This document shows positions 10,622-63,580 of a DNA stretch of 64,000 nt, in pieces; the first letter of the stretch is position 1, and each line of letters starts with the position of its first letter. The position numbers were made by a program, and so were the translations under genes. The notes beneath the pieces were generated by a model. It saw only the letters and a list, made by a program, of their open reading frames with translations, was not told the DNA's origin and did not search any database. The stretch is from Cucumis sativus. Lineage: Eukaryota > Streptophyta > Magnoliopsida > Cucurbitales > Cucurbitaceae. Location of the stretch: contig NC_026660.2 in assembly GCF_000004075.3 (NCBI RefSeq), forward strand, positions 25,237,498-25,301,497. Direction: 5' to 3'.

Positions 10622-11807
10622 TTATTTACATTGATTTGTTGAATTAAAACTTTCAGTAACTTCAACCAAATGTTGATAAAGTTGTGTGGGTTTTGAGAGC
10701 ATAACCATATGGCCTCCTCCATAAATATATTTCACAGCTTTTGGTGGAAATTCTTCTATCATCAACCTTTGGAATTTCCCCTCCATAACGTCATCTCCTT
10801 CACAGAACACAAAAACCCGATTAACCGATCCAAATTTCGCTTCTGTTACAATGGATTCCTTAGATAAATCCTTAAAAAACATCTTGAATGGCCTCACCAG
10901 CAATTTTCCCAACTCCAGATCCTAAATAATCATAAAAGAAGAATCAAACATTAATTAAACTTAAAAGTTGTAAACCTTCAAAAGAAAAGATGTAGGGTAA
11001 CTTATCTAATCATGGTTTAATCATTCTTGTTTTTTTTTAAATCTAAAGACCAAAAAGATTAAATTTTTTGATATCCAACTAGCTAGAAGTCAAAGATTTA
11101 ATTCTCTTACCTAACAACAAGACAACACGTATGATTAAGAAAAAAAAACATCGAGTGAAGAAAGTTTAAGTTTAGTGAGAACTCACCTCCTGGGAACAAT
11201 TCGTATATAACTTTTGTCTCAAAAAGTTATGACCATAAACAACAGAAGTTGGCATTTCTGGATCATCGCCAAATTTAAATTCACAATCCATCAAAGTCTC
11301 CGCCGAAAGGCTCTTAAATAACTGTGAATTTAATCAAAATAACCATAAATTTAAAAAAAAAAAAAAAAAAAACTAAAAAACCAAAGCTCTTTTTTCAAAG
11401 AATTTTTTTAAAAAATAATTCATGTGTTGTATTTTTACCTTTTGCAATAAAGTAGCTGGAGAGTAAAGGAAGTGAGGCATATAAGCAGTAACAAAAACAG
11501 AAACAAGAATCCGATGTGAGAATTTTTCCATAGCCAAAGAGATTGCAAAGCCACCATAGCTATGTCCAACAAGAACCACTTTTTGTTGTAGAGGAAGACC
11601 TTCAATCAACTCCATCAACGGCTCAACATACTCCTCTATAGATGCGACGTTGTCCAACTTTTTCGGGTTGGTACCGGCGCTGGCAAGGTCAATGGCAGTA
11701 GCATGGTGGCCGGCCGAGCGGAGAAGGCTGAGAAGTTTGAACCAACACCAGGCACCATGGCCAGCCCCATGAACCAAAACAAAGTGAAGATTATTATTAT
11801 TCTTCAT
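10622..11807 (-). CDS. Methylesterase C (divergent MES/PNAE-like hydrolase)
   Basis: Exons 11807-11439, 11312-11187 and 10921-10622 on the minus strand give 264 residues with phase-0 introns, as in the two neighbouring MES genes. The nucleophile elbow is GHSYGG (Ser83), the acid lies in EGDD (Asp208), and the histidine is in GGGHMVML (His236). It differs from MES-A and MES-B: HGAGHGAW replaces [17 protein letters not shown] replaces DMAASGIDK, and the middle exon is shorter and lacks the WLDT-type lid motif, reading SLSAETLMDCEF instead. It therefore probably belongs to another MES subclade (MES10-like is a guess) and may use another substrate. The compact introns (126 and 265 bp) contrast with the 1 kb introns of the other two. 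The gene appears intact. Confidence 0.88.
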
Positions 11808-11866
11808 TGCTTGCTTTCTCTATCTCTGAAGTACTGTATGCTATTGCGATATGGTTGTTGAGTTAC

Positions 11867-37020: not shown

Positions 37021-37043
37021 TATATATCCTATATATATTAAAC
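37021..37043 (+). promoter_or_regulatory. Likely TATA box of the Dof gene
   Basis: Two TATATAT runs, the second reading TATATATTAAACCC, lie about 265-285 bp upstream of the chosen ATG. They are followed by a CT-rich leader (37045-37260) typical of plant 5' UTRs. A leader of about 240 nt would result. It contains a repeated 'ctttg' block at 37210-37231. Confidence 0.5.
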
Positions 37044-37308
37044 CCTTCTCCTCTTTCCACACTCTCAAAAGCTCATCCCTTCTTCCCTCATCAAAATCAA
37101 AATCAAAATCCCTCCATCTCAAATCAAAAACATTCATCCAACCAAAAAACCTACTTTCTTTATCTCTTTTTCCCCACTAACTAAAAAAGAACTCACAACT
37201 TCCATATCCCTTTGCTTTGCTTTGCTTTGCTTTTCTTTTCTTTTCTTTTTCTCTTTTGTTTTTGGATTGTTCTTAAATCTAATCCCCCGAAAAGAAAAGG
37301 AAAAAAAA

Positions 37309-38313
37309 ATGATCCAAGAACTATTTGGTGTATCAGGACTTTTAGCTGCGGCTGGAGACACCAAAATCTCCATCAATAATACTTGTTCAATTCTAGATTC
37401 TTCCCCTTCCACTTCCCTTTCTGCCTCCGCCACTGCCGCCAGTAACGCCACCGTAACGACCACTGCCACCCCAACAACGTCCTCAAATTCGGAAGGCCAA
37501 AACTTGCGGTGCCCAAGATGTGACTCTTCAAACACTAAATTCTGTTACTACAACAACTACAACCTAACTCAACCTCGACACTTCTGTAAGACATGTCGCC
37601 GCTATTGGACCAAAGGTGGAGCCCTCAGGAACGTTCCCATCGGTGGTGGCTGTCGGAAGAACAAGAGCGCCGCCGCCACGGTGGCTGCTGCTGTAGGGAA
37701 GTCTACATCTGGAAAAATGAAAACGTTATCGTCTGAGATACTGGGTCGGGTCGGATTCGGAAATGGGTCGGCGTTGGATCACGAAATAATATCATCGCCC
37801 ACGCAAATTCTGTGGGGGTCGCCACAAAATTCTCACCTTCTGGCTATTTTGAGATCCGCCACCCAAAACCCTAACCCTAGTAATCTCACCGCTTCCCACG
37901 TCATCAATAATGACCCACCGCCGTCCACCACGCCCTTTCATGCTCGGACCATGGGTTTTGATGATCCTCCGGCTGGACCTCATGTTTCTTCTCTGGGACT
38001 CTGCAGCTCTTACTGGAGGAACAATCAGAATCAAGTTCATCATCAACAAAATGGGTATCCTCACGGCGGTGGAGATCAGGTCCACAGCGGTGCCAGTGGG
38101 ATTCAGGAGCTCTATCAGAAGCTAAAATCGTCGTCGAATAATTATTTCAGCGACAGTCACCAGGGATCTGTGGGAGTAACGAATGTGGCTACGACGGCTA
38201 CGGCGGCGATTTTGGAAGCAGCGCCGGTGGGCGGCGGCGAAATGACAGGTTTCTGGAATCCAGCTTTTTCTTGGTCTGATGTTCATGCTAGTGCTAATGG
38301 AGCATATCCTTAA
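37309..38313 (+). CDS. Dof zinc-finger transcription factor
   Basis: A single exon codes for 334 residues. The Dof DNA-binding domain spans about residues 66-118, with zinc ligands Cys68, Cys71, Cys93 and Cys96 in the CX2C-X21-CX2C spacing. The core includes [20 protein letters not shown] and [20 protein letters not shown]. Dof proteins bind AAAG sites in the nucleus. A Ser/Thr/Ala-rich stretch precedes the domain, an Ala-rich patch and basic residues follow it, and the C-terminus carries GFWNP and FSWSDVH near the end. I chose the ATG at 37309 because MIQELFG begins normal coding sequence. An in-frame ATG at 37222 would add 29 mostly hydrophobic or Lys-rich residues from the pyrimidine-rich leader and is unlikely. 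Subgroup is unresolved. Vascular PEAR-type Dofs share the same core, but I cannot assign an orthologue. Confidence 0.93.
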
Positions 38314-44869: not shown

Positions 44870-46960
44870 CTTGATTGAGAGAATGGAGAGGAGATTAAGG
44901 ATGAAGAGAGTCTTATTTGTTGAGAATTTGAAACCCCTTTTATTAAGGTCAGTGGGTAACAGCTAGAAGTTGATTGAATACAACTGGAGTGGATAAAGGG
45001 GTAAAATAGAGAGAGGGCGGGAAGAGAACCAAGATTCTTGGTCTGCACTAATAATATTTTCTTAAATGTAATAATCCAAATTGAGTTTTGAATTAAGAAA
45101 ATGTTAATTGTATGTTAGAAAAGGCAGGGGAGTATAAATTTAGTAAGGTTGTAACTCCAACTTTATGGAGCATTCGGTGCTATTGACGCGTTTTCTCATA
45201 ATTGAGAACCCAAATCGCTTCAACTGGAAGCAACCTTGATAACAATGAATGAGCGGCATAAGTTAGAATAAATATTTCTCTTTCTTTTCATTTTCTTTTT
45301 GGATGAAAAACTCCCCCAGATTACGCTGTTATTCATGGCTTTAATCTTCCTTTCCTTTTTCTTTTTGACCCTCTTTACTTTTCCTCTAAAGATTAAAAAT
45401 TAGTAATAACAAAATAGCCTGATTTTGGTTGTCCTTGTTCCTGACGATTTCGATTCTCTTTTACACAATAATGGATCACAATATATGTGTGCAAAATGAC
45501 TTTCCTTTGCAACTTTTTTCCATATCTCTTAAGTGTAATATTCTACTAAAAAAGGGATTAGTCTATAAAATAGAAAACTTTTGTATGTTTGGTTTATGAA
45601 ACCCAGATGTTACCAAGCTCATAATTGCAATTGGGCTATTAAAGCTTTAGAATTGAAAACGCTTAATCTTTGGTCTCATTCCCCCTTTGATTCTTAGGTG
45701 AGCTCTCCTTACAATATTGTGGGAGAGATTTTAGATATAAGTAATTTGGTTAACATTTGATCCTTTTGCAATTGTGTTGTAGATGAGAAGCATGTGTGAT
45801 GTCGGAGAGGGCAGAGGTTTGGTGAGTAAATTAATAACAAATAGTTCCCCACACGGTTTGCTTTGCTTTGGTTTGTCGCTGTGGCTGTTTGTCTCCTCAT
45901 ATCAAACGACGCACCGCCACTGAATATCACCAATCTCTAAACTACTTTTAAATCATTGATTCCAAAATCAAACCCTTTTTCATCTCTCCTATATCCTCTC
46001 TTTTACATTAATTAATCATATCCTACTTTGCTTCATATTTTTAATTTATTGCCTTTTCTAGTACTAGTATATTACAAAAATCCCAATAACAGTGTTATTA
46101 TTCCTCACATTCATAATTTTTTTTACATGTACCATAGTCTTTATAAATATTTCCCAAATTAACTGATTTCAAGCTTGAAAGAAGGGCCAAATGAAAGGAT
46201 AATTAAGATTTGAAGAAAGATTCAAAGGGTAGTATTGGGATACATTTAGAATAAAATTCAAAGGGTAAAAATGGACACAAATGTTTCTCCCACATTCTGA
46301 CTTTACTACATATTATAGGTATTTAAATAAATGATATGTTTTTTGTTCAAAGGTTTAGGGTTTGGGTCAATTCATCCCCTGTATTTTAAAATTCAACAAT
46401 TAAGTTTAGTGTTTCTAATGCCCTACAAACTGCTTTATTATATACCCTCTAAATTTATGGAATTAGTTAACAATTTGAGGTAAGTTAATCAGATAATATC
46501 ATAATTTTTTAGATACAAATTTAAAATATTAATGTACGCTTTCATAACAATTTCCTTACACTTTTTTTTCTTTATAATGAAAAACATACTATATTTGATA
46601 ATATCCTTATTTGTTTTCTTTTAAGAAAAACATAAACAAAAATTTATATTTAAATTTGTTAGGCAATATTATATTTCTAACTCGAGTCATTTATCTTAAA
46701 TTATGTTTGAGTCAAATCCAATGTAATTATATAATTATGTAAATGTTGTGGTTGTAAAATACTAAAGTTAAGTTAAATGAATGTCTCGTTTAGAAATATT
46801 TATAAATTATAAATTACTCGATTTTATATCATATATAAAAAGTTAATATGCGTCTAAATACGGGAGAATTTTAAAATTAAAAATAGAAATAAAATACAAA
46901 TATATAACACATTTTAAAAGTTATCTCATATTTTTTCAATTTTGATCCCATTGTTAGAAG
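44870..46960. other. Intergenic between the SKS gene and the RPW8-GRAM cluster
   Basis: The left part holds the SKS promoter and leader. The rest is AT-rich DNA with no supported gene. A minus-strand frame at 45709-45933 has no recognisable family. SKS (minus) and the RPW8-GRAM gene (plus) are divergent, but 2.7 kb apart. Confidence 0.55.
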
Positions 46961-47546
46961 TATTATTGTGTTCTCTAACTAACTTTTTATCACACCAAAA
47001 TTTCTGTTTCAGTTTCTTTTTTCTTTTTAATTTTCAAAAGAAACAGTTTTATGTTTTAAAAGAGTAACGACAAGCAAAAACGAATCTACTTGAATGGATA
47101 AAGGGATCGTATTGATGAGTGAATGCAATTTTGTTTTCTTTTAAAGTGATACATTTTTATTGCTTAAAATTCAATTTTTTTTATATATATAATATTAACA
47201 CATGTTAGAAAAACTTGGTTTTATTTTTATTATTTTCACATATGTGCCCATCTTTAAATAGAAATATTATGATTTGAATATATTAGTTTTAAAAAAGGTT
47301 AAATTATATAAATCAAAATACTTTTATAAATTTCGGTGGAAAAGGAAAAAGAAAAAGAAAGAGAGAAAGGAAAGTAAGCTTGTAGTTCAAGTTAAGCACA
47401 CACCCTCGTCAACAGTATTGAGTCAAGATGAGATGGGTATTTTGCATAGTTTTATATTCCCACTTCCAATCATCTCCCAAGTTTCTGCTATATCAGTTAA
47501 TAATTGTATACTTTTGAGAGACAGATCATCGATCTTCAAAATAGGA

Positions 47547-49344
47547 ATGGTGGTGGAGGAATTGTTAGTCGGAGCGGCTTTGGGTGCTTTATTAGGAGAG
47601 TTGCTGAAAGGGGTTATGAATTTGATGGAAAAATCCGTTCATTTCAAACCTGAGCTTGAACTACTCAAATCACAGATTGAGTTTTTACAGCCATTAGTGG
47701 ATCAGGTGGATGAGCTTGGTGAGGATTTCAAGCTTCGCTATTCTGATCAAACCTTGAAGATACTCATACGTAAAGGTAAGCAACTTATTAGAGAATGCAA
47801 TGATGCTGCCATACAAAATACTCTCTCCAGGTACTTCAAGATTCAACTATGTTACACAAAAGACCTTCGAAGATTGGATGCTGAACTTAAAAGGGCGGGA
47901 AGCAATTTGAGGTTGGAATTATACGTACAACAAATGAAGAAATTACAAGCTCTGGAAATTAATTACAATAATGATGGCCGCTATGGTCGAATTCTAGATC
48001 GAGCCAAATTAATTGTAACCAGCATCCTTACGCATGTTGGTTACAATTTTACATTTGTAACCAACATCCTCGATAAACTATTTTCGGGCGAGAGTGGGAG
48101 TAATAATAATAAATATAATATCAAGCTGCCCTTGCTGTTTTATCACGATCAGAGACTCAAAGGTAAACTATATATATCGTTATTAATCATCATCATCGCA
48201 TCATCCTCGTATGTTTTTTTAATTATATATATTAACCATTTTTTGTATGATATTATTAAATTGTATAAATGGGTGTAGGGAAAGCCGGTGTAAATTCTTT
48301 ACATGCTTTGTTGGGAAGAGCTGTAGAACACATCAAGGACGACCCAAAGAAAGGTGGGTTCATATCAATATATAATTAGTACTGCACTGATCCTCTTTTT
48401 ATAATTATTTTTTTTTAAAAAAGTGTGTTTAATTAATTTAAAGGCCGGATTGCGGGAATAATTGAAGAGATAATAAAGAAGTGGGGGGAAGGTAGATTTG
48501 AGAAGATATTTCATCGCACGTTTGAAACAACTATTGTAGCAGCTGACGAAAAGCTTCAAATATGGTTTGCTTGTAATTTGTCAACTACAAGAGAGAGAGG
48601 TGAAAATGAAACAGTAGCAGCATTTGGTGTTTTATTTGTATCTTCAGCAAAGCTTGCATTCTGGAGTTTCAAACCTACTCCACTACCACATTCCTCCAAT
48701 GTTAATACACAATCCCTGTATCTCAAGGTACCTACTTTTACTCATTTTCATAAATCAATAAATATAGAAACAAAAGTACTGACACATTTGAGATTCTTGG
48801 TAATCCAGTTTCAGTTAAGCAATCTCCACAATAAAATCAACAGTTAACCAAAAAGGGAAACTCTCTTAAAAATATATAATCTGCAAAATAATATAAACTC
48901 TCTAAATAGTTAACTCTATTAGGTGAAACACGTATTATTTGTGTGTGGATATCTCTTCTTATATTTATATTTTTTACTAGTTGTTTATTTTGTAATAGTT
49001 AAATATATATTCTCTGACAATTCATAGGAGATTAGAAAATCGAACCTCTCCTAACTTGAAGGTTAACATATATACAGAGCTAGCTATTGTTGATGTTGCA
49101 CAGAAAAAAGAAGGTATATTTTATAAGAAAGTTTTTATTAGTTGAGTATCTCATATAAAAGATACAACAACAGGTAGTTATACCATTTGAGCTACTAAAA
49201 GACGTTGAGTATGATGGAGATCAAAAATGCATACGAGTCATCGCCATTGATGACCAGAAATTTGAGTTTATGAATTTCCGGAACTACAATTTCGCTAAAG
49301 AAGGCATCCAACAAATTCCACTCGCACCCATTTGGACTCGCTAG
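47547..49344 (+). CDS. RPW8-GRAM fusion protein, copy A
   Basis: Exons 47547-48162, 48279-48353, 48444-48727 and 49174-49344 join with consistent phases to give 381 residues. Residues 1 to about 135 are an RPW8 domain (ELLVGAALGALLGELLKGVM, later KGKQLIRECNDA and LCYTKDLRRLDAELKRA) closely like that of the RPW8-NLR at 60676. Residues about 136-205 are a linker ending in a decayed P-loop exon (LPLLFYHDQRLKG). Residues 206-381 match a GEM-like GRAM protein: RAVEHIKDD, GRFEKIFHRTFET, CNLSTTRERG, AFGVLFVSSAKLAF, KVVIPFELLKDV and KCIRVIAIDDQKFEFMNFRN. RPW8 domains act at membranes in immunity; GRAM domains bind lipids. NB-ARC and LRR parts are absent. An in-frame ATG lies upstream (47274), but MVVEELL matches the RPW8 start. 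Function is unknown; membrane-linked immunity is an inference. Confidence 0.8.
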
Positions 49345-49669
49345 CTCTACAAACTCTCTCTGCCTTAATTCTTGGGTTAGTAATAGACTATATTGGATTC
49401 AAGTTTTTATATATATATATAGATATATATATATATTTATTTATTAGGTAAGTACAGTTTTCTAGGGCTTGACCTTTAATTATAGCTGTGGTTGATTATT
49501 ATAACTACAAGTTAATTTTGTGATCGTGAATTATAAACTTATTAGTTAAATAGTTTTGTTTTTGTTTTTTGCTGGATTTTAATTTCTACCTTTACTTTGG
49601 AAATTCCCATGGAATTTTAACAAAGGAAAAAGAAAAGGAAAGAGTCAGGTGGGAGAGAGAAATTGAATA

Positions 49670-50586
49670 TGCTGGGTATTATACTTATGTCAACAATCGA
49701 GCTTTCCAACCAACCAACCACTTGTAAGACCAGAGAACGCGCTAAGCCAACACGAACCAATAGGAAACTAGAGATCACAACGCCAAACCAACAATCGCAA
49801 TATTGCTAGTCAAACTCGAACCAAGAAACTGAGACACCTACAGATCCTATGACCGGAGACCCACAACCACAAACCTGTCCGACTGCAGAATGCCCTGTTG
49901 TAAAAATAAGGTACATCACTGTCAAAATGACTTATTGTGTAGTGACGAATCTTTAAGATTAACACAGCTTCTACTTGTACACTTGGTCCGATATTAAAAT
50001 AGAAACGATCAAGAAACTTACTCACAATTGACAACTATTTGTATTGGTAGAGAAAAGGAGAGGTTATAAAGAATGAATGAATAAGAATACAAATCTTTAT
50101 TAAGGCAAGCACAGTTGTTCGAGCCCGAGCTCGGACTGACGTCAAGTAGTGACACGATCATAGGGTTTACTTCTTCCAATTTAAGAGAGATAACTTTACA
50201 TTGGGTAAAGGTCCACAGTCTTTTCCAACGCACCTAAGGCTGGAAAAAAACCACCACCAACTGACGTCACTACACCGTCAGGACGCCTACGTCAGATGGC
50301 GTCAACCACGGCTAAACCAGCCGTGAAACCTCCCAAACCGGAAAACCCACGTAACCCGAGGCGAGTGACGCTGAAATCGCTCACCGAATAACGCACCACC
50401 GTCGTGTGGCCGTGGGATAGACTTTTTCTCTCTCTCCTTTCTTTCTCTGTGAATTGCGGCTGCCCTCTCTTCACCTCTTCCTCTTTTCTTTTTCCCAAAA
50501 TAAAACGAAGAATATTCGCTTAATTGCAAAAGTGCCATTGGCACATAATTACAATTCTGTCCACGACCATAAAAAAACTCATTTTA
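49670..50586. mobile_element. LTR-like insertion downstream of RPW8-GRAM copy A
   Basis: About 917 bp is absent from the matching place in unit B, where the uninterrupted text reads 'gaaattcaatacctaa' near 58732. In unit A the text stops at 'gaaattgaata' and resumes as 'caatacctaa', leaving a near-duplicate of five bases on each side (gaata and caata). The insert starts TGCTGGG, is much richer in GC in its second half (50.1-50.45 kb), and has no transposase or polymerase frame. This fits a solo LTR, though the 3' end lacks a clear CA. Class is uncertain; that it is an insertion is well supported. Confidence 0.6.
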
Positions 50587-52185
50587 CAATACCTAAGGCT
50601 TATTAATTATGGTAGCCCTTTTATTTTATTTTTTGTTTTTGTTTTTCTAAATTTAACTTATTTCATCCTTGTTCTTTTTACATATGGCATCTCTTAAATG
50701 TTTTTAAAACACTAAACCTTAAATAAATTTTTAAAAGCTAACCTTTCTAAGTTTTTAATTTTTGACATGGTTTTCTAAACCATGGATGACGGAAGAAATT
50801 TTTTTGGGTGGAAACAATTTTTATAAGCTTAATTTTCAAAAAACAAAGAATCAAAGGTAGGAAAAGAGATATTTTTAAATAAATAGAGGATGAGGAGGAG
50901 AAGCACAAGTACAAGGGAGTAAAATTTTTTTAGTTCAATATAATTAGGGTCTTTAATTGATTATTAATTGCTAGTTTTTAGCTTAAAAGTAGCCCAAGAA
51001 AATTTATAGATGAAGTGCATGAGCCAAGGGAAGAAGAAGATGAAGGTAAGTTCTATGTAACGACTTAGTGATGCTTTGGTGTTTTAAACTACTAGTTATT
51101 AATTTTGGCTAAATAGATTCTTTGATTGAAGTTTATTGTTTTTATTAAGTAAGTCTGCTGGCCTTTGATTAAATATTAACGACAGCTTTTATTCTCATTA
51201 ATTAAAAACAAAATATATTTAAAAAACTTAGCTGCTTCAATGAAAATCCCTGAATTCTATAGAATAAGGAATGAGAAGGCTTTTATTATCGATGTTTGGT
51301 GTTTTTGTTTTGTAATAATGGAGGAGAAGCAGTCCAAACTGTACAAAGGAAGTTTCATTGTTGATGTTTTTTTTCTTTTGAAAAAATACAACGGTCTCTA
51401 ATTGCTTGGCTACTTTTAACCTTATTAATGTCCATGCAAATTATTGATATATAATCCATCAACAAACAGAAAATAATCAAGCTACTTTGTGTACTTCACT
51501 GATATATATATATACACATATGTGTATATGTATATATGTATATATGTCTGTGTTAGGCACTTTAACCAAGGGAAGGGACTAATGAGTTAATGATTTTTTT
51601 TTTTAAATTATCATTACAGGTTGGAACTTGAAGATAATTTATTTCCATCTTTAATTGGAACTTTGGAATTTCAAGAGATTAATTGTGACTATGTTTGTAT
51701 CCTGAAATTTCAAATTAAAAGACTTATAACTGTTATATGTTTGTTTATTGTCCATATAATTAACTTCAAGAGGTTTGTGATAATTATACGTTTATATCCT
51801 GAAATTTTACAAAGGTCCATTCACAAATGTTTGCATTTTGGAATTTTAAGAGATTTATATGTGAATACGTATGTCGTTTGATTAACGTTTCAACTCGGGT
51901 GTTAAATTTTAAAAACGTCTTAATTTGATCCTTCCTAATTTGTCTTATTTTAGCTAGAGGACTTATATGAGCATTTTAGAAATATAATAAATAATTGAAT
52001 ATATGTTTGTATGTATAGGGTTTGTTTAATACCAATTCAAAATGATTATGAATTTTGTGAGAATTTGAGAATGCATATGGACATCTCTTAAAAATGGTTT
52101 TCAAACCACTTGATTTTATGCATATTTATTTGAATTTTCGTTTCTGCCCCTTGGTTGTGAAAGCGTTTTGGTAATATACACATTT

Positions 52186-53190
52186 TGATCCAATTTTTAA
52201 AAACTTTCTTTAAAATTTGGAAACAAGAAACACAGCTTTTTCTTTAAAACCAGAAAACAAAAACATCTATCATTAAAGGAACCTGGTTTTTGAATATTTA
52301 AAAAGGAGAGCAGTGTAGAAATTTATGATTCAATGATTTTAAAACGTAAAATACACATTAAATTTCAATTGTGAGAGGGGAAATGAAATTAGAGGAAGAC
52401 GAATGGCACAGAGGTGTATTTTAGTCAACAACTTTTGTCCACATATATATACTAACATTTATTACTGCAAATTTTGAATATTCAACCACTATTTTAAAAG
52501 AAATCTACTATTATTATTATTATTATTATTATTTAATTTCTGAAGTTGACATATAATAATACTTTTGAAAGTTTAATGTAGACAAAATAAGTTGAAACGG
52601 TTCTTGCTAAATTTTTAAAAAAGTAAACTCAGGGTTAAACTTATTGCTTTTACAAAATTAGCAAATGAAAAGCTCCACTCATAAATAAATGTAAGGAAAA
52701 TACAAATAGATTTTATACACTTGATACGAAACTTGAATATACACTTCAAAATGAAAATATAAATATGTAGGACACATTTTAAATTATCACTCACTGTAAT
52801 TTCTTTTTCTATCATTTTAAAGTAAAATGTTACCTTAGTACATGTGGTTGTCTCTTTCTCTGTACTGATGAACATAATAAATAAATAAATAAATGGTGTA
52901 AAAACAAAAGAGAATTAGTATCACCACACAAAACAAGATTGAAAATTCAGCAGCGTCGTCGTCCAGGCCTTGAGAAGAAACAGCACCAACAAAACATTAA
53001 TGGCTCACAGCTTAGCCCTCTCTCTTTATCCTCTCCTCCCATGGATTATTCGAAATGGAAACAGTAGCTTCTCTTCTACCCTCTCTTCTCTTCTGCCTTT
53101 TCCCATATATTAATAATGCTAATTACTATTTTATTTTCATCTTCTCTTTCTTTCCTTTTTCTATGTATCTTTTTCAAAAGAAAAAAGAAT
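52186..53190. other. Spacer between the two duplicated units
   Basis: About 1 kb that is not obviously shared by the two units. It includes an ATT repeat at about 52508-52532 and a slightly GC-richer patch at 52935-53075. A plus-strand frame opens there but is short and low-complexity. No gene is supported. Confidence 0.5.
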
Positions 53191-55015
53191 TATTATGTTC
53201 TCTGACTAAGTTTTTATCACACCAAAATTTCTGTTTCAGTTTTTTTTTTTTTTTAATTTTATGTTTGATTTTCATCTAGTTTTAGAAGTATGTATTGATG
53301 AGTTTCAAACTTAGTTTTCATTTTAATTCTAATACACTTAGAGACAAAGATAAAGACCTCGTCTTGAAACCATTCATTTATTTTTTAAAATTTAAGATTA
53401 TAAACGTTATTTTTTTTTAATTCTCTGGTATTTCACTGATTTTTAAAACTAAAACCACATTTTGAAAAGAAAAAAAGAACAGTGAAAGGATAAGGGGCAC
53501 GTATTGAGTGGATGCAATTTTGTTTTCTTTTAAAGTGATACATTTTTATTGCTTAAAATTCAAAATTTTCTATAATATTAACACAATGTTAGAAAAACTT
53601 GGTTTTATTTTTATTCTTTTCACATATGTGCCCGTGTTTATACATTGATGGAAGGAGGAGTAAACTTGTAGTTCAAGTTAAGCACTCACCGGCTCAACAG
53701 CTGAGTCAAGATGATGAGTATTTTGCATAGTTGCTTCCAAACATTTTCCATATGTTTCTGCTACATCAGTTAATAATTATATATTTTTGAGAGAGACATA
53801 ATCGATCTTAAAAATAAAAATAGTGGGGGAGGAATTGTTAGTCGGAGCGGCTTTGGGTGCTTTATTGGGAGAGTTCCTGAAACGGGTTATGAATCTGATG
53901 GAAAAAACCGTTCATTTCACACCTGAGCTTCAAGTACTCAAATCACAGATTGAGTTTTTACAAATATTAATGGATCAGGTGAATGAGCTTGGTGAGGATT
54001 TCAAGCTTCTATATTCTGATCAAGCCTTGAAGATACTCATACATAAAGGTAAGCAACTTATTAAAGAATGCAATGATGCTGTCGTACGAAGTACTCTCTC
54101 CCGGTACCGCAAGATCCCATGTTACACAAAAAAATTCCGAAGATTGGATGCTGAACTTAAAAGGGCGGAAAGCAATTTGAGGTTTGAGTTATGCGTACAA
54201 CAAATTAAGAAATTACCAGCTCTCAATGATGGTCGCAATGGTCGAATTCGAGACCCAGCTAAATTAATTGTAACCAAAATCCTCGATAAAATACTTTCGG
54301 GCGAGAGTGGGAGAAATAATAATAAATATAATATCAAGCTGCCCTTGCTGTTTTATCACGATCAGAGACTCAAAGGTAAACTATATATATCGTTATTAAT
54401 CATCATCATCGCATCATCCTCGAATGTTTTTTTAATTATATATTAAACATTTTTTGTATGATATTATTAAATTGTATAAATGGGTGCAGGGAAAGCAGGT
54501 GCAAAATTTGTTGCTGCTTTTGTGGAAAGAGCTGTAGAACACATGAAGGACGACCAAAAGGAAGGTTGGGTTCATATCAATATATAATTAGTACTGTACT
54601 GATCCTCTTTTTATAATTGTTTTAAATTGAAAAAAAAAAGTGTGCTTAATTAATTTAAAGGGATTGCGGGAAGATTTGAAGAGATAATAAAGAAGTTGGG
54701 GGAAGGTAGATTTGAGAAGATATTTCATCCCACATTTGAAACAAGTATTGTAGCAGGTGACGAAAAGCTTCAAATATCGTTTATTTGTAATTTGTCAACT
54801 ACAAGAGAGAGAGGTGAAAATGAAACAGTAGCAGCATATGGTGTTTTATTTGTATCTTCAGCAAAGGTTGCATTCTGCAGTTTCAAACCTACTCTACGAC
54901 TACTTTCCTCCGATGTTAATATACAATCCCTGATCAAGGTACCCTACTTTTACTCATTTTCATGAATCAATAGATATAGAAACAAAAGTACTATAAAATA
55001 ATTTCTCTTTGAATA

Positions 55016-57754
55016 CACTACCAGAATTTTGGTATTGAAAAACGTCGTCACGTGGATAGAGCTTCTATCGACGTTTTTTTTTTGTGTGCGGGCCATCGTG
55101 GCCGTATCCATATTGTATTTTCCTTTGCAAATGTTGGAACTGCACATGCCAATTGAAATATTGGACCAAAAAATTTTTGTCCACGAAAAGGGGCACTTGC
55201 AAATATAGCATAATTTGTTTTATAAATTAAGCCCACAGCACACTATTTTTGGATTTGTACATTTAGAAAATACAAAATTACAAATCTATCCTCTAGAATT
55301 ATAAACATTTGTACGCATTATTTGATATGTTATCGATATACTTGATGTGTTTTTTATACACTTGATATTCTTGTTGATACACTCGATGAAGTAAATAACA
55401 CTTGATACACATAATTGGTTTGATACACTTGATATGTTGGTGGTACATTTGTTAAGCTTTGCAAATACACTCAATCAATTAAATGCATTGATGCACTAAA
55501 CATAATACTTTTGTTGCGTTGTCGATACATTTGTTACAATTTGTTCATACACTTGATGAGTTTAATACACTATCTATAAAGTTTAATATACCAAATACAC
55601 TACTGATAAACATTTTACACTTCATCGATGCACTTGATACAGTTTATATGTTTGATACCCTTGATGTATTGGTACACTTTCTATGTTTACTGATACACTC
55701 GATTGATTAAAATACAATACTTGATACATTTGAGGTTCTCTGTTGATACACTCAATATACTTCGCTAGTAAACGTGGATACATATTATATGTTTGATACA
55801 CTAAGTTATATCATTCATATACTTAATAATACTAAAATGAATTGCATTAAAATTTGAGAAAATGAAAATCATGTAGTAAGTATATCAACCAACTAATACA
55901 TATAATATAAGTACATTACAACATTAATATATAAAACTAATACATACAACGTGATGCTCTAACAAACCAAAGACAACTATCTTCGTTACATCCCAACTAA
56001 AATAGATCTTGAATTAGATCTCAATGTCTTAAACTCAAAATTTGTCTTGACAACGGAATGACTTCAACAAAATTTATTTACTGATATAAAAACTGATACA
56101 AATTTATAAAAAAGGAAAAGAACCAAACATAAATAAATAAAACAAAGCTATGCAGAGCTCCTTTCAGTAAAAGAGATGAGTAACAAATAAAAGAGATGAG
56201 GAAGAACAAATCATAGCCTTAATTTTGGATAGATGATGATCAATTCACAGAAGAAGAAAGAAAAAAATATGATAATCAAAGTCTCTTACCAATTTCGGAC
56301 ACCAAAATATAGGAAAGAACATTAGGGGTTTTAAAAAAGAACATAGAAAGAAATACATACCTGAAGAAGAACAATAGGGAAGAAAGGAGAAGAAGACAAG
56401 AAGAAGATACGTAGCGAAAAGGAGAAACCAAAAACGATGGAGATTGAAGGAGTGATAGAAAATACCACGAAGGGGAAGAGAAAAAATGACAATAACATGG
56501 ACGATAAAAAGTGAATAAAGAAGTGACAGGGAACTATTAAAATAAAAAGAGAAAGAAGGAGAAAAGAAAACAATGGAGATTTATAGAATGATATTTTTGG
56601 AATAAAGAAAAAATTAAAATATAAAATATCAATAAAATTTAGAAAGTTGTTATATTTGCAAAATTGAAAATGTTAGTGTTAATATTGGTGAATGATATTT
56701 GAATCGTGCCACCCAATACAATTCTCCTATAATTTTCGTACCCAAGTGTTTGGATAGGTAACACTAAAAGTAGAAAGAAACAAACAGTGAAAAAAGAAAA
56801 TAAATCCCAAAAACTGTGGCTACACCAAGAGATGATATAATGGTTGAACGTAATTTAATCCGTAAATTGTGAAATGTATCAAATGGGTGTAGGTATCAGT
56901 GCTGCAAGTAACATTCTGATCAAGTAGTTAGAGACACTGTAGGAAATGAGGCACCCAGAAAAAATCCAAAGACCACTCCCACTAACGTTGTCCATATATA
57001 TAATCCTTGCACTGTCGTTTGCTTTTCTAGTTTCTCCACTGTGAAAAGAATATGAAAGCCAAGACCACATAAACCAAACCACCAGGGTACGTATGAAAAA
57101 CCAATCAAAACTAAAAATGACAAGGACACAAATAAAAGCAAACAACTAGCATGTGTATACCGATGGGCGCTTCCCGTAGTTGTAATGATATCTCAAGTTG
57201 TATAACCAACTTAATCAATAATTCTTTGAGCGACTTGTGAAAGTCCAATCCACATAAAGTCGAATCCCAAAAGACAGTCATTAAGATTCATCCACACAGT
57301 AATAGAATAAACTTCGCAGTCGTTCTTATTCTTACGAAGTTCACCCAGCAATTCAGAAGAAGAGAGATTCATATGAAAATCAAGCAGTTCGGCAGTAAAA
57401 ATGTGAACAAACACATAATAATAACCGAAATGAACAGGGGGAAGAAAATTAAAAATCACAATGCATCAATGTTCAATAAAGTCGGAAATTCGCATTAACT
57501 CAAGAAACCTCAAACACATTCGAATCCAAAAATGTACAAAACAACAAATGATATAATTAAAAAGAATCTGTAGCCATTAACAACTGCAACGTAAATGCCA
57601 TAAGAAACCAAATCCGAGAAAGGAATTTAACAAAAAGAAAAAAAAAACAGTAGAGAGAAACGGAAGGGTAGCATCGGTGTTCGGATGGTGGATTGCGGGA
57701 AATTGGGAGGTTAGTAGAGAGAAACTGTCTGTAGAAACCAAAATTCTCGTAGTG
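55016..57754. mobile_element. Non-autonomous CACTA (En/Spm-like) transposon
   Basis: The left end reads CACTACCAGAATTTTGGT. The right end, reverse-complemented, reads CACTACGAGAATTTTGGT, so the terminal inverted repeats match at 17 of 18 positions. Three-base target duplications ATA flank it (55013-55015 and 57755-57757), the size CACTA elements make. The corresponding intron of copy A lacks it. A hairpin AAAAACGTCG/CGACGTTTTT lies just inside the left end, and a field of 'gatacacttgat'-type repeats follows. The right half has minus-strand hydrophobic frames (56879-57145, 57211-57459) that may be captured host sequence, but I recognise no protein. No transposase of usual size is present, so the element depends on another copy for movement. 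Confidence 0.88.
55330..55810. repeat. Degenerate 'gatacacttgat' repeat field inside the CACTA element
   Basis: Variants of 'tgatacacttgatatg' recur about every 20-40 bases (for example near 55375, 55398, 55418, 55640 and 55735). They could be subterminal transposase-binding repeats of the CACTA element or an older repeat carried inside it. Spacing is irregular. Confidence 0.6.
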
Positions 57755-58311
57755 ATAGCCTAACACACTATTAGATAAACCATGTATATCTATCTCTTCT
57801 TATATTTATTTATATTTCTTACTAGTTGATTAGTTTTTAATAGTCAAATATATATTCTAAGATATTAGAAAATGGAACCTCTTCTAACTTAAAGGTTAAC
57901 ATATATACAGAGCTAGCCATTGTTGATGTTGCAGAGAAAAAAGAAGGTATATTTTATAAGAAAGTTTTTATTAGTTGAGTATCTCATATAAAAGATACAA
58001 CAACAGGTAGTTATACCATTGGAGGTACTAAAAGACGTTGAGTATGATGGAGATCAAAAATGCATACGAGTCATCGCCGTTGATGACCAGAAATTTGAGT
58101 TTATGAATTTCCGAAACTACAAAGTCGCTAAAGAAGGCATCCAACGCTTCCACTCGCACCCATTTGCACTCGCTAGCTCTACAAACTCTCTTTGCCTTAA
58201 TTCTTGGGTTAGTTATACATTATATTGGATTCAAGTTTTTATATATATATTTGGTAAGTACAGTCTTCTAGGCTACACCTTTAACTGTGGTCGTGGTTTA
58301 TTATTATTATA

Positions 58312-58590
58312 AGAGATAGTTGTAAATTTAGCAATTAAATTCAAAATAATTAAGTATATAGCAACATTTTTAAAAAATTACAAATATAGCAAAATTTGTT
58401 AAATTCTATCAATGATAGAGTCTATCACTGATAGACCATGTTGTAAAAATTGGTCTATCACCGATAGATCATACGAGTCTATAAGTGATACAAATCTATC
58501 AGCGATAGTTTTGCTATATTTACAATTGTTTTTAAATGTTGTTATATTCTTAATTATTATTCTTCAAATAGTCATCCATTATAATTACCT
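58312..58590. mobile_element. MITE (possibly hAT-like) at the end of RPW8-GRAM copy B
   Basis: The two arms are long imperfect inverted repeats: the left arm contains 'acaaatatagcaaaat' and the right arm 'ttttgctatatttacaat'. The centre carries several copies of 'ctatcan(t/c)gatag'-type short palindromes. Unit A lacks the insert, and 'ttattata' on both sides (58304-58311 and 58591-58598) could be an 8-base target duplication, which points to a hAT-type MITE. Because the flank is itself TTA-repetitive, the exact ends are uncertain. Confidence 0.7.
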
Positions 58591-59985
58591 TTATTATAAC
58601 TACAATTTAGTTTTGTGATCATGAATAAGAAACTTATTAGTTAAGTTAGTTTTGTTTTTGCTTTAGAAATTCCTATGGAATTTTAACAAAGGAAAAAGAA
58701 TGGGGAATCGAGGGAGTCATACGGGGAAGAGAAATTCAATACCTAAACTTCCTTCCGTAACCATTTTATTTTTGCCTTAGTTTTTTAAAATTAAACTTAT
58801 TTCTTTCTCCGATTTTTTAAGATGATTGAGAGATGAAATAGTTGAACTTTTAACTAAATTAATTTTAAAAACAAAAACAAATTTTTAAATGCTATTCTTT
58901 TTAAATGATTTTTTTAAAAAAAATTATTGATAAAATGAAGATGATGGATGAAGAAATTTTGGGTGGAAATAATTTCTACCAACTTAATTAAAAAAAAAAA
59001 AAAAAAAGAATCAAAGGTTGAGATGTCTAGAAGAAGGAATGAAAAGATATATTTTTAATAATGAAGGAGGAGAAGCACAAGGGAGTGCTTTTTTTTTTTA
59101 ATTCAATATAATTAGGGTCCTAATTGCTAGTTTTTAATTAGCTTAAATAAACCATGAAAAATTATGGATGAAGTCAATGAGCCAAGGGAAAAAGAAGATG
59201 AAGGTAAATTTTATGTAACTTTACAAAGGAGTTTCATTATTGTTGATGTTCTTTTCTTTTGAGATTATATAATGGTCACTAATTGCTTGGCTACTTTTAA
59301 CCTTATTAATACCCATGCAGTTTTATTGGTATAATCCATCAACCAACACAAAATATTCAAGCTACTTTGTGTACTTTACTGATACATGTATGTGTGTTTA
59401 TCTCACTACTTTAACTAAGGGACTGATGAGTTATTGGGTTTTTTTTGGTTAAATTATCATGACAGGTTGACACTTCAAGAAAAATTATGACCATCTTTAG
59501 CACTTCTGAATTTCAAGAGATTGACTTCAAATCCTGAAATTTCAAAACACTTATTACTAGATATGTTTGTTTTTCTGTATGTATGTATGAATAATTTTAA
59601 CACATAGGTGACTATGTTTGAATCTTGAAATAACATTACACTGTTTATTGACAATAATGTTGGCATCTTGGAATTCCAAGAGATTTATATATGTGAATAA
59701 GTGTACATGTCGTTTGATTTGAACGGTATTTCAACTCATTATGTGTTTAGTTTTGAAAATGTCTTAATTTTATGCTTTCTCTATCTTATTTTAGATGATT
59801 TATATGAACATTTTAGAAATTATTTATGATTTTGTAGAGTGTTTGTTTAATACCAATTCAAAATGATGATGAAGTTTGTGAGAATTTGAGAATGCATGGA
59901 CACCTCTTAAAATTGGTTTTCAAACCACTTGATTGTATATATTTGAATTTTCGTTTCTACCCCTTGGATGGAAGCATTTTGGTGA

Positions 59986-60675
59986 TACATGTGTGTGTGT
60001 ATACATGTATGTATACTCATAAAGATTGAGCTGTTTAAACCTTCACAGAAGCATAGTTTTGGAGTGCTTTGTACTTTGAATATGCTCTACAAATGTATGT
60101 GGCTAGGATAATTTATTATATATTTCTGATGAATCTTTTAGAACGACAATAATTTAATAAGTTTACTTCAACATCTCAATCAGATTGAGAAACTAATGAA
60201 ATGTAATATAATTTAAATTAGGAAGAAGAAAAAGCGACCCATTTTAATATTACATTGAAATTATGGATACTCAGTGGACTTTCTTTGCCACGCCAATTAT
60301 TCACCCAATTTTTCTATAGCATGACGAAAATATTGCTTGATATTTATGATTCTAGAAGTCAAATTTCATCGACCAATTGATTTTCACTGTTCTTAACTCC
60401 TTCACGAAGACACTTTGAAAGCATTTACACCCAGAAACAGAATCGGAAAAAAGAAAAATGATTCGGACATGGAGTCACGATACCATTCTCATCCCACCAA
60501 CCTCGAAATTTTCTACTTTAGACGCTCCATTCCCACTTCCAAACACCTCAATAAGTTTCGAATTTTTGCTTCAATGGAACCCCAAACCTTTCAAACTCTA
60601 ATAAACGAGAAGAAGGGGTTATGCTGATCGGTTAAAGGTATTGTCTTTTGTTGTCTCTGTTTCTTAACGAAAGAA
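59986..60675. other. Promoter and leader region of the RPW8-NLR gene
   Basis: AT-rich at first, then more balanced from about 60380, where the 5' UTR probably begins. A plus-strand upstream frame (60415-60627, 70 codons, with an internal ATG at 60469) ends 48 bases before the main ATG. It could be an upstream ORF but has no sign of selection that I can see. Confidence 0.45.
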
Positions 60676-63580
60676 ATGGCGCTGGAATTGGTGGGTGGGG
60701 CTGTTTTGGGGGCTGTCGTTGGGGAGCTATTCAAAGCGATCTTGAATCTGGGTGAAAGGGCCATCAGTTTCAATCCTGTTCTTAAGGATATCCGTTCCAA
60801 GCTTAATGCTATAATGCCTTTGGTGAAGCAAATCGATGAGCTTAATGATTATCTCGATTACCCAAAAGAAGAAACAGAGAAATTGAGGGGTCTGATGGAT
60901 GAAGGGAAGCAGTTGCTTCTCCAGTGCGGCGATGTGAAATTGGGGGATCTTAATTATTTGAAGAGACCATCTTACACCCAAAAGCTTCGGGAATTGGATA
61001 CTGCACTTCGAAGCTTCATGGATGTTTTGATGTTGCAGATGGCTAGAGATCAGAAGAAGAACATGAAGATGATGAACCAAATGATGGAGATCATTTGTAG
61101 ACTTGATAATAGAGGTGGGTCGAGTAAACCTATGGATTTGTTTGTTCCACCATGTCTGGTTCCTCAACTGCGAGAAGAAACCGTTGGGTTGGAGAAGCCA
61201 GTTAAGGAGTTGAAGGTGAAACTTCTCAAAAATGGGGTTCAAATGTTGGTGGTGACAGCTCCTGGTGGCTGCGGAAAAACCACACTGGCCTTAAAATTTT
61301 GCCACGACAAAGAAGTCAAAGGTACGTCAAAATCATTCCTTTTGAGGGAAAAAATGAAAAAAGTTTGTCTACATATTGAGCTTAGGAAATGAAATTATAT
61401 TAAACTATTGGGTGAAAAAAACTTAATGGCGTCTCTTACAGGAGCTTTCTAATTTCACGTCTTGATAGATATATTCCAGGAGAAGATCTTTGTCCCAGTT
61501 TCAAGAAAACCAGATTTGAAGCTTATATTGAAAGATATAATTGAAAGCCTTAGAGGAATTCAATTGCCTGATTTGCAAAGTGATGAACGTGCATTCTGCT
61601 ATTTAGAATTGTGGTTGAAGCAGACAAGTGTAAATCGTCCTGTTTTGATTGTGTTAGATGATGTGTGGAGTGGGCAAGAATCTGAAGTTCTTCTTGATAA
61701 GCTGTTTCAATTGCCTTGCTGCAAGATCTTGGTCACTTCTAGGTTTTATTTCCCAAGATTTAGTGAGTCTTATTATTTGGAACCTTTGAACCATGAGAAT
61801 GCAGTACAACTTTTTCGTCGTGCAGCATCACTGGACAAAGGAATTTCTAAGCTCCCCGATGATGAAACTGTAGAAAAGGCAAACTTTCTATTATCTGATT
61901 AGCTCTACTTTTTCTAATATTTTTATATCTGTCAGTTTCTTTTAAATGGCTATGTTTAAAAAGCTCTTTGAAATTGAATTTCAGATAATTGGGGGATGCA
62001 AGAGACTACCTCTTGCACTGAAGGTAATCGGGAGGTCTCTTTCCCACAAACCGACATCTGTTTGGAAAGTAACGGGGAGGAATTTGGCTAGAAGTGGCTC
62101 CATATTTGATTCTGACAATGAACTTCTTGAATGCCTTCAGAGCAGTTTGGATGTCTTGGATGATAACATGGTAACTAAGAAGAGTTTCATGGATTTAGGC
62201 TCTTTTCATGAAGATCAAAGAATTTCTGCTTCTACCTTCATTGACATGTGCACAGTTTTGTACACACTAGACGAAAGTGAAGCAATGGTTACCCTTGACG
62301 AACTATCCTCTCGAAGTCTAGTTAATTTTGTCACAGCGAGGTAAATACTATGCTCGAATGTTTGTAATTTCAGTTGCTGATAGTGTTGCCTGTATTATTG
62401 ATGTAAAGAGAATAGAAATTGATTTGTTTTGTGGGGTTGTTGATCAGAAAATATGGATATGATGATGACTTTTATGAAGAGTACTCTTTTACTCAGCATG
62501 ATATTCTCAGAGATTTGGCTATTCACTTGATGAATATGGAGCCCATAGAACAAAGGAAAAGATTGATCTTAGACATTAATGGAAATGATCTTCCCAAATG
62601 GTGGGTTGATCAAGAAAAGCATACTTCCTATGCTCGCCTTATATCCATAACCACAGGTTTGTCTCTTTCTCTGTGATATTCCATTTTCTTTCCTTTTTCT
62701 TTATCACTTTCACAACTTACTCAAAGGGGTTTTGGATGTTGCAGATAAGAGATTCTCAGCAAGTTGGCCTGACATGGAAGCACCTGAAGTGGAGGTTCTG
62801 ATTCTTAATCTTCAGTCAAGAACTTACAACTTGCCTGGGTTCATCAAAAGAATGAATAAGCTGAAAGTTTTGATAATCACATATTTTGGTTCTTTTCTAA
62901 CTGAGGTGACAAGTGAAGATAATCAACTACTCGACAGCCTAACAAGTCTTGAACGAATCAGGTTTGAGCGGATTTCAGTTCCTATCTTTAGTAATCCAAA
63001 CCCGAAACCACTGATAAATCTGCAGAAAATATCCTTCTTTATGTGCAAATTTGGTCAAACATTCATGGATCCTTCAACCCCAATCTCAGATTTGTTGCCA
63101 AACCTGCTGGAGATTTCCATAGACTTCTGCAACAATTTGAGTGAAGTCCCCAATAGGTTGTGTGAAATTGTCAGCTTGCAGAAGCTGAGCATTACAAATT
63201 GCCATGGACTATCTTCCTTGCCAGAAGATGTAGGGAAGTTGATTAATCTAAAAAATCTAAGGCTAAGATCTTGCATTCATTTAGAAGAGTTTCCAGAGTC
63301 GACAACGAAGCTTCGGGAATTAGTCCTGCTTGATATATCTAACTGTATTGGTCTTGCCAAGCTTCCCGAGAAGATTGGTGAATTTCATAATTTAGAAAAG
63401 CTTGACATGAGACACTGCTGGAGTTTGAGCAAGCTGCCACTGTCGATTGGAAAGCTGAAAAATGTGAAGTTTTTATGTGATAGAGAGGTTGGAGAGTGGT
63501 TGAGAAAGGTTGCACCTCGCCTTGCCAAACAGGTGAAAGTGCAAGAGGAAGAAGCCAACCTGGAGTGGCTTGGTTTTTGA
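60676..63580 (+). CDS. RPW8-NB-ARC-LRR immune receptor (RNL, NRG1-like)
   Basis: Exons 60676-61321, 61469-61878, 61985-62340, 62448-62656 and 62745-63580 give 818 residues. Order: RPW8 domain (about 1-130, MALELVGGAVLGAVVGEL), NB-ARC with P-loop GGCGKTT (197-203), kinase-2 LIVLDDVW (275-282), RNBS-B CKILVTSR, GLPL-type KRLPLALKV (about 359-367) and QHD (487-489) in place of MHD, as usual for RNLs. LRRs fill about 540-800, and the tail is EEANLEWLGF. RNLs are helper receptors working downstream of sensor NLRs, and NRG1 forms calcium-permeable channels with EDS1-SAG101. NRG1 rather than ADR1 is inferred from the LVVTAPGGCGKTT and LEWL-type motifs. The second intron appears to be GC-AG (donor AAG|GC at 61879). 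Intron 1 has two possible acceptors, and only the 61469 one keeps the frame. I found no disabling lesion. Confidence 0.88.

Follow-up and report, generated by a model that had tools for sequence, protein, structure and literature searches.

The window, by which we mean the whole 64,000-nucleotide stretch of Cucumis sativus DNA analysed here (NC_026660.2, positions 25,237,498 to 25,301,497 of the forward strand), carries two copies of a predicted gene that joins an RPW8 (CC-R) domain to a GEM-type GRAM domain, and an RPW8-NB-ARC-LRR gene (RNL) of the NRG1/At5g66900 type from which fusion copy 1 lies 11-13 kb away on the same strand. Elsewhere in the window, open frames on the minus strand at 3021-11819 resemble, going by a familiar motif, what we take to be tandem methylesterase-type hydrolases, and an open frame at 37042-38313 with a CxxC zinc-finger stretch resembles what is presumably a DOF transcription factor. 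The features on which the analysis is built are as follows.

47547..48162, plus strand: fusion copy 1, exon 1; encodes the RPW8 (CC-R) domain, a linker and the remains of a degenerate P-loop; Pfam RPW8 59.0 bits; tail matching the RNL exon-1 tail
48163..48278, plus strand: fusion copy 1, intron 1; 116 nt, 78% AT; putative junction of the RNL-derived and GEM-derived parts
48279..48353, plus strand: fusion copy 1, exon 2; length 75 nt, with a phase-1 intron on either side; corresponds to GEM exon 2, which is likewise phase-1-flanked
48444..48727, plus strand: fusion copy 1, exon 3; first half of a GEM-type GRAM domain
49174..49344, plus strand: fusion copy 1, exon 4; carries the other half of the GRAM domain (VVIPFELLK...FEFMNF); last base of the stop codon at 49344; phase-0 intron position as in GEM
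53820..54375, plus strand: fusion copy 2, exon 1; carries the RPW8 part and has ATA where the start codon aligns
54490..54564, plus strand: fusion copy 2, exon 2
54661..54938, plus strand: fusion copy 2, exon 3; carries the first GRAM half
55187..56737, plus strand: repeat-family element inserted into copy 2 within intron 3; limits given by the span that most dispersed copies cover, with one further match reaching to about 57666
58007..58174, plus strand: fusion copy 2, exon 4; carries the second GRAM half; bounded by the part comparable with copy 1
60676..63580, plus strand: neighbouring RPW8-NB-ARC-LRR gene (NRG1/At5g66900-type RNL); exon 1 at 60676-61321 with a phase-1 donor behind CHDKEVK; leucine-rich exons

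Conceptual splicing of copy 1 from the ATG at 47547 gave a frame of 381 residues with no internal stop, in which all three introns are GT-AG and have phases 1, 1 and 0; exon 1 closes with LPLLFYHDQRLK-G, followed by the phase-1 donor. A further in-frame ATG lies upstream at 47433, and the intron-2 acceptor (TTAAAG) looks weak at -3. Pfam models placed RPW8 at residues 5-117 and GRAM at residues 252-372 of copy 1 (59.0 and 29.8 bits, respectively), and the corresponding scores for copy 2 were 48.8 and 34.8 bits, against cut-offs of 30.4 bits for RPW8 and 23.6 bits for GRAM. The preliminary description of this locus was therefore exact in its span of 47547 to 49344 (from the ATG to the end of the stop codon) and correct in proposing phase-compatible exons, the five peptide motifs that it quoted all recur in the translation of copy 1, and the two domains that it named are recognised above the cut-offs in both copies. 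At the level of the predicted gene model, we regard the joining of RPW8 and GRAM in one frame as confirmed. Its further statement that NB-ARC and LRR are lacking held in so far as neither the NB-ARC model (60.4 bits for the neighbouring RNL as a control) nor the LRR models matched the fusion at values up to E 1, but not in full, for exon 1 retains an eroded piece of NB-ARC comprising the P-loop region and the residues behind it. The gene model thus has RPW8 and another domain in one reading frame and no NBS, as do proteins of the RPW8-X (non-NBS) class, and it falls outside the NLRs with integrated domains, in which NB-ARC is present.

The second copy (53820-58174) is probably a pseudogene or an N-terminally shortened gene. 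No in-frame ATG was found upstream of its ATA start before a stop is reached, a 1-nt frameshift near the C terminus carries the frame on to 58312, and the repeat family inserted in its intron 3 has 103 matching stretches in the genome, itself included, those above 400 bits being mostly 73-88% identical. Between the copies, exons 1 to 4 are 91%, 81%, 93% and 95% identical and introns 1 and 2 are 97% and 93% identical, so that the exons are no more alike than the introns. Intron 1 (48163-48278 and 54376-54489) is, at 97.4%, the best-conserved stretch compared, and it opens as a hydrophobic-tail continuation of exon 1; gene conversion or alternative intron retention could account for this conservation. 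An assembly artefact or chance join was rejected because the copies agree in exon order and splice sites, with 81-95% exon identity, and because the exon structures of both parents are matched. Two copies had already been cited as an argument against an assembly error, and copy 2 does support that argument, although as a damaged copy and not as a second intact gene.

An RPW8 profile search covered the 226.6-Mb assembly in 88 contigs, with seven candidates scored, and its counts are lower bounds: at least five matches reached E <= 0.001, consisting of three RPW8-NB-LRR genes, on C6 (in the window), C4 and C2, and the two fusions. Two cucumber RPW8-NB-LRR genes, CsRSF1 and CsRSF2, have been reported on chromosomes 6 and 4, and CsRSF1, with a coding sequence of 2457 nt, is in the words of the paper's title a positive modulator of cucumber powdery mildew defence (PMC8069588). 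Enumeration within chosen splice ranges yielded two open-frame GT-AG models of exactly 2457 nt for the RNL in the window, which is probably CsRSF1, the model length being consistent with that identity and no proof of it. RPW8 fragments that are 79-81% identical to part of fusion exon 1 were also seen at C5:7373785-7374075 (L045) and C7:15031451-15031659 (L046). Both contain in-frame stops, and they resemble each other over 384 nt at 91%, which suggests that they were copied as a piece, perhaps by a mobile element. They were rejected as further fusions because the RPW8 domain is partial and interrupted by stops and no GRAM match was found within 9-kb stretches.

The boundary of exon 1 points to its origin. 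In the three RNLs of this genome, exon 1 ends in CHDKEVK, CHDKQVK or CKDPEVR before one base and the donor (phases read by eye), and a phase-1 intron just behind the P-loop helix is present in all three and in both fusion copies. Where exon 1 of the fusion ends in LPLLFYHDQRLK, that of the neighbouring RNL ends in LALKFCHDKEVK; MAFFT aligned the two tails unprompted and set the RNL P-loop GGCGKTT opposite GSNNNKYNIK, an intact P-loop being absent from fusion exon 1. Compared with the C6 RNL, the last 12 residues of the exon scored 30 (p 5e-5 by permutation, the lowest value that 20,000 permutations allow), a score reached by none of 203 other RNL-exon windows and none of 193 other fusion-exon windows. 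They scored 28 against the C2 RNL and only 9 against the ADR1-like gene (p 0.007; equalled in 1 of 219 other windows). Overall, exon 1 is 33-36% identical to RNL, with 36% identity to the neighbour in the RPW8 domain. A profile that included the window RNL matched chain 8yl6, a solved structure of At5g66900, at E 2e-9 from position 8 through to the end, whereas the single fusion protein alone reached only E 0.26 against At5g66900 CC-R structures. The tail match, the donor position and the phase show fusion exon 1 to be homologous to the complete first exon of an NRG1-type RNL, with a P-loop that has decayed.

An eroded NB-ARC piece in the same exon argues for descent from an RNL, and a stand-alone RPW8 gene is the less likely parent given the tail from the P-loop region. 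A recent derivation from the neighbouring RNL was rejected because exon 1 is only 33% identical to it and the synonymous divergence is 1.37. As for the rest of an RNL, a search of positions 45000-60600 for NB-ARC or LRR remnants returned a single tblastn match at E 3.6 and no convincing remnant.

Exons 2-4 lead to a different family. The long-N GEM gene L034 consists of a proline-rich exon 1, a 102-nt exon 2 and exons 3 and 4, with intron phases 1, 1 and 0, and an exon 2 with phase 1 on both sides also occurs in L053 (the upstream extension of the L033 gene) and in the C3:25.890 gene (L036); this comparison took in three of five long-N genes, L035 and a second C3 gene having been left out. The fusion agrees with this layout in its phases and in the position of its KVVIP boundary. 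For intron 2, one alignment gives a position about nine codons downstream of that in GEM, an offset that requires a shift or a small deletion, and another makes it the same intron after a small exon 3 deletion. The assignment of exon 2 is by layout and phase, since the exon is too short and diverged for a homology test on its own. Exons 2-4 thus correspond to exons 2-4 of long-N GEM genes, which encode a helical stretch and a split GRAM domain, with an RNL exon 1 standing in place of GEM exon 1. Matches to the GEM proline-rich exon 1 in 45000-60600 were of a low-complexity kind only (E 0.96 or worse).

A tree built from 12 GEM GRAM rows and the two fusion copies placed the fusions among the long-N GEM genes beside L033, on the same chromosome, with weak support (62/52) and on a branch of 1.73, as compared with 0.078 for that weakly supported sister. 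The rows for L039, L040, L041 (twice) and L042 were without the stretch between two exon matches and the row for C3:25.887 was cut short at the C terminus; L037, L043 and L044 were left out for want of a GEM match, and the locus near C5:24.160 Mb had no row of its own, since the exon pieces matched there are identical to those at C5:24.168 Mb. Thirteen of 21 GEM-invariant columns are kept in both fusion copies, and copy 1 breaks 7 of 20 and copy 2 breaks 6 of 20, whereas in a leave-one-out control each of the 12 GEM rows broke 0-3 of 21-24 invariant columns. By these comparisons, the predicted GRAM domain of the fusion is strongly diverged from GEM.

The synonymous divergence of the fusion is 1.12 to the nearest GEM gene (L033), saturated to L034, and 1.37 to the nearest RNL exon, that on C6, but 0.079 between the two copies. 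Since the divergence from both parents far exceeds that between the copies, the fusion is much older than its duplication and should be found in other cucurbits. Two tests between the copies speak for coding: neither copy has a stop in 350 aligned codons, where 4.25 would be expected if the 93 substitutions between them were placed at random (P=0.011), and all five indels in exons 1-3 are multiples of three, whereas in non-coding stretches only 2 of 15 are (p=0.0014). Adding exon 4 gives 5 of 7 (p=0.014). Alignment end effects may account for one of the two exon-4 gaps and for as many as two pairs of the 15 gaps counted in non-coding stretches. Between the copies, dN/dS is 1.25 overall, which does not differ from 1 (p 0.51), and 0.86 in exon 1; it proves neither purifying nor diversifying selection, and constraint is therefore unproven. 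Exon 3 (48444-48727 and 54661-54938) has 19 non-synonymous differences against 1 synonymous (dN/dS 5.9, Fisher p 0.053), a hint of diversification in the GRAM domain.

With moderate confidence, we interpret the gene as an exon-shuffled RNL/GEM chimera whose product is most likely an RPW8-type four-helix bundle placed by its GRAM domain at a membrane or partner. Because both parent introns have phase 1, recombination between RNL intron 1 and GEM intron 1 could have given an in-frame fusion, with the proline-rich exon 1 of GEM exchanged for exon 1 of an RNL; a later tandem duplication of the chimera produced the two copies, of which copy 2 is now decaying. Having neither a working P-loop nor an LRR, the fusion protein could not be the nucleotide-gated receptor that its ancestor presumably was. 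Instead, the GRAM domain would set the place of action of the RPW8 bundle through a membrane lipid or a protein partner, and there the fusion might itself disturb the membrane or might modulate the adjacent RNL.

The published properties of the parent families bear on this interpretation. The CC-R domains of NRG1 and ADR1 bind phospholipids; that of AtNRG1.1 binds PI4P among others, and the K100E change abolishes its binding in vitro (PMC10410763). Arabidopsis GEM binds PI3P, PI4P, PI5P and PA, and is bound by PIP5K9, a PI4P kinase (PMC4778130). Membrane targeting of the RPW8 part, as suggested in the preliminary description, is thus plausible, given that PI4P binding is published for both parent families (PMC10410763, PMC4778130). 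In our alignments, the position of K100 is occupied by D106 in copy 1 and by lysine in copy 2 and in the window RNL; with aspartate at this position, membrane attachment may have passed from the RPW8 part to the GRAM domain in copy 1. The substitution may, however, mean little, since AtNRG1.1 K100E still triggers cell death, if more weakly, and K100 is not conserved in RPW8 proteins (PMC10410763). Lipid binding of the predicted GRAM domain may likewise be lost, because residues invariant in the family are changed. A more specific proposal, which we offer tentatively and regard as rather doubtful, is that of a switchless NLR-derived executor or modulator of cucurbit-wide age, a pore-forming helper-NLR module separated from its nucleotide switch by intron recombination, in which the GRAM domain, responding to lipid composition or a partner, and not NB-ARC oligomerisation, sets where and when the CC-R domain acts. 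The likelihoods that we attach to the four readings weighed below overlap with that of the chimera interpretation and are not meant to add up to certainty with it.

The first of these is that exon shuffling and duplication produced a chimera that is functionless, both copies now drifting. We consider this somewhat unlikely, although much at the locus agrees with it: dN/dS is near 1, exons are conserved no better than introns, the start of copy 2 is lost and a repeat has entered it, the C5 and C7 RPW8 fragments are broken by stops, and the GRAM branch is very long. Drift would not readily leave all 350 aligned codons free of stops (P=0.011) or confine the indels to frame-keeping lengths (p=0.0014), and copy 1 is intact despite a synonymous divergence above 1 from both parents, a long time for a dead gene, unless it died recently.

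Regulation of the adjacent NRG1-type RNL, by a switchless CC-R that joins or competes with it at the membrane, would be a special case of the chimera interpretation. The position of copy 1 at 11-13 kb on the same strand invites it, and suppression of full-length relatives by truncated or atypical helper NLRs has been described (PMC12315475). The RPW8 domain is nevertheless only 36% identical to that of the neighbour, and NRG1C is without CC-R and most of the NBD, the reverse of the fusion protein (PMC12315475); with the opposite half retained in NRG1C, the competition for EDS1-SAG101 by which that protein works cannot apply here. The fusion would on this reading be comparable with NRG1C and NRCX in effect and not in structure, and we think it unlikely.

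Two overlapping products in place of a fusion are distinctly unlikely in our judgement. On that account, retention of intron 1 would yield a 243-residue RPW8 protein with a hydrophobic tail, and a short GEM-like protein would start from the ATG at 48269 within intron 1. Intron 1 of copy 1 is indeed open in the frame of exon 1 as far as the TAG at 48276-48278, and exon 2 continues the frame of the ATG at 48269, which has an in-frame counterpart in copy 2. Splicing is nevertheless favoured by the two ends of intron 1, the donor agreeing in place and phase with that of RNL exon 1 and the acceptor with that of GEM exon 2, and by the 78% AT content of the intron as compared with 62% and 56% in the adjoining exons; the short product would need a second promoter inside exon 1 or the 116-nt intron, and the retained reading is shorter in copy 2, ending at 54446.

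The least probable reading, that of an integrated decoy whose GRAM domain imitates a GEM-like effector target and whose disturbance triggers the RPW8 part, has behind it the excess in exon 3 and the plant immune receptors with integrated domains already on record (PMC4759884), but that excess falls short of significance, the protein is without an NB-ARC switch to link sensing with action, our search for work on GEM-like proteins with effectors and immunity found no related publication, and the divergence of the GRAM domain (branch of 1.73 against 0.078, 7 of 20 invariant columns broken in copy 1) makes it a poor mimic of a present-day GEM, which weakens the decoy idea as the preliminary description had put it.

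If the chimera interpretation is correct, the locus shows how exons of a helper immune receptor and of an unrelated gene were shuffled, and donor exon, acceptor exons, phases and both parent families can all be followed in one genome. Switchless proteins derived from RNLs would test how far CC-R activity depends on NB-ARC, and the fusion of two domains from PI4P-binding families would make the membrane addressing of CC-R modules directly testable. The gene is, moreover, close to what is probably CsRSF1, an RNL linked to powdery mildew in a crop plant, and surveys that require NB-ARC would be expected to miss it. Beyond the preliminary description, the present analysis identifies the parent exons, recognises the P-loop as eroded and finds the intron phases to match.

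Among known systems, the NRG1/At5g66900-type RNLs share with the fusion a whole first exon, the position and phase of its donor, the residues behind the P-loop and the RPW8/CC-R domain; the fusion differs in having no working P-loop, NB-ARC core or LRR, in its 33-36% identity over exon 1 and, in copy 1, in the aspartate at the K100 equivalent. With GEM and GEM-like long-N proteins (the nearest at C6:26.727 Mb and C2:19.662 Mb) it shares the GRAM domain, exons 2-4 with phases 1, 1 and 0, KVVIP and F-x-F, but it has an RPW8 exon instead of the proline-rich exon 1, its branch measures 1.73 against 0.078, a seven-residue insertion precedes the position of the AGP/TGP motif, whose G and P are changed, and the W and G of FWFMGF are lost. 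The Arabidopsis RPW8.1, RPW8.2 and HR proteins have an RPW8 domain and no NB-ARC, LRR or GRAM. The fusion differs from them in its GRAM domain and in keeping an NB-ARC remnant, which suggests that it arose from an RNL by a route of its own.

An RPW8-GRAM protein was not found in the published literature searched on RPW8, GRAM, GEM-like, fusion, integrated-domain and cucurbit topics, and the word GRAM is absent from the main texts, supplements being outside the scope, of PMC5039405, PMC4759884, PMC7145615 and PMC8463517. The earlier statement that no RPW8-GRAM architecture has been described therefore agrees with the literature searched, with the qualification that fusions of RPW8 to other domains have been published as a class (PMC5039405). 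The RPW8-X (non-NBS) proteins of Zhong and Cheng 2016 (PMC5039405) resemble the fusion in combining RPW8 with an unrelated domain and no NB-ARC, and differ from it in their named partners, Pkinase_Tyr, IQ and Peptidase_C48, with GRAM absent from the main text. For cucumber, Table 1 of that paper gives one RPW8 duplication with Ks above 1, and the close fusion pair is thus not in that table (PMC5039405). Cucurbita genomes have 1-2 partial genes labelled 'RPW8' each (PMC8463517, Table 2), which are candidate orthologues of the fusion. From NLRs with integrated domains the fusion is set apart by the absence of the NB-ARC that defines them, and with them it has in common the union of an immune-receptor part with a foreign plant domain.
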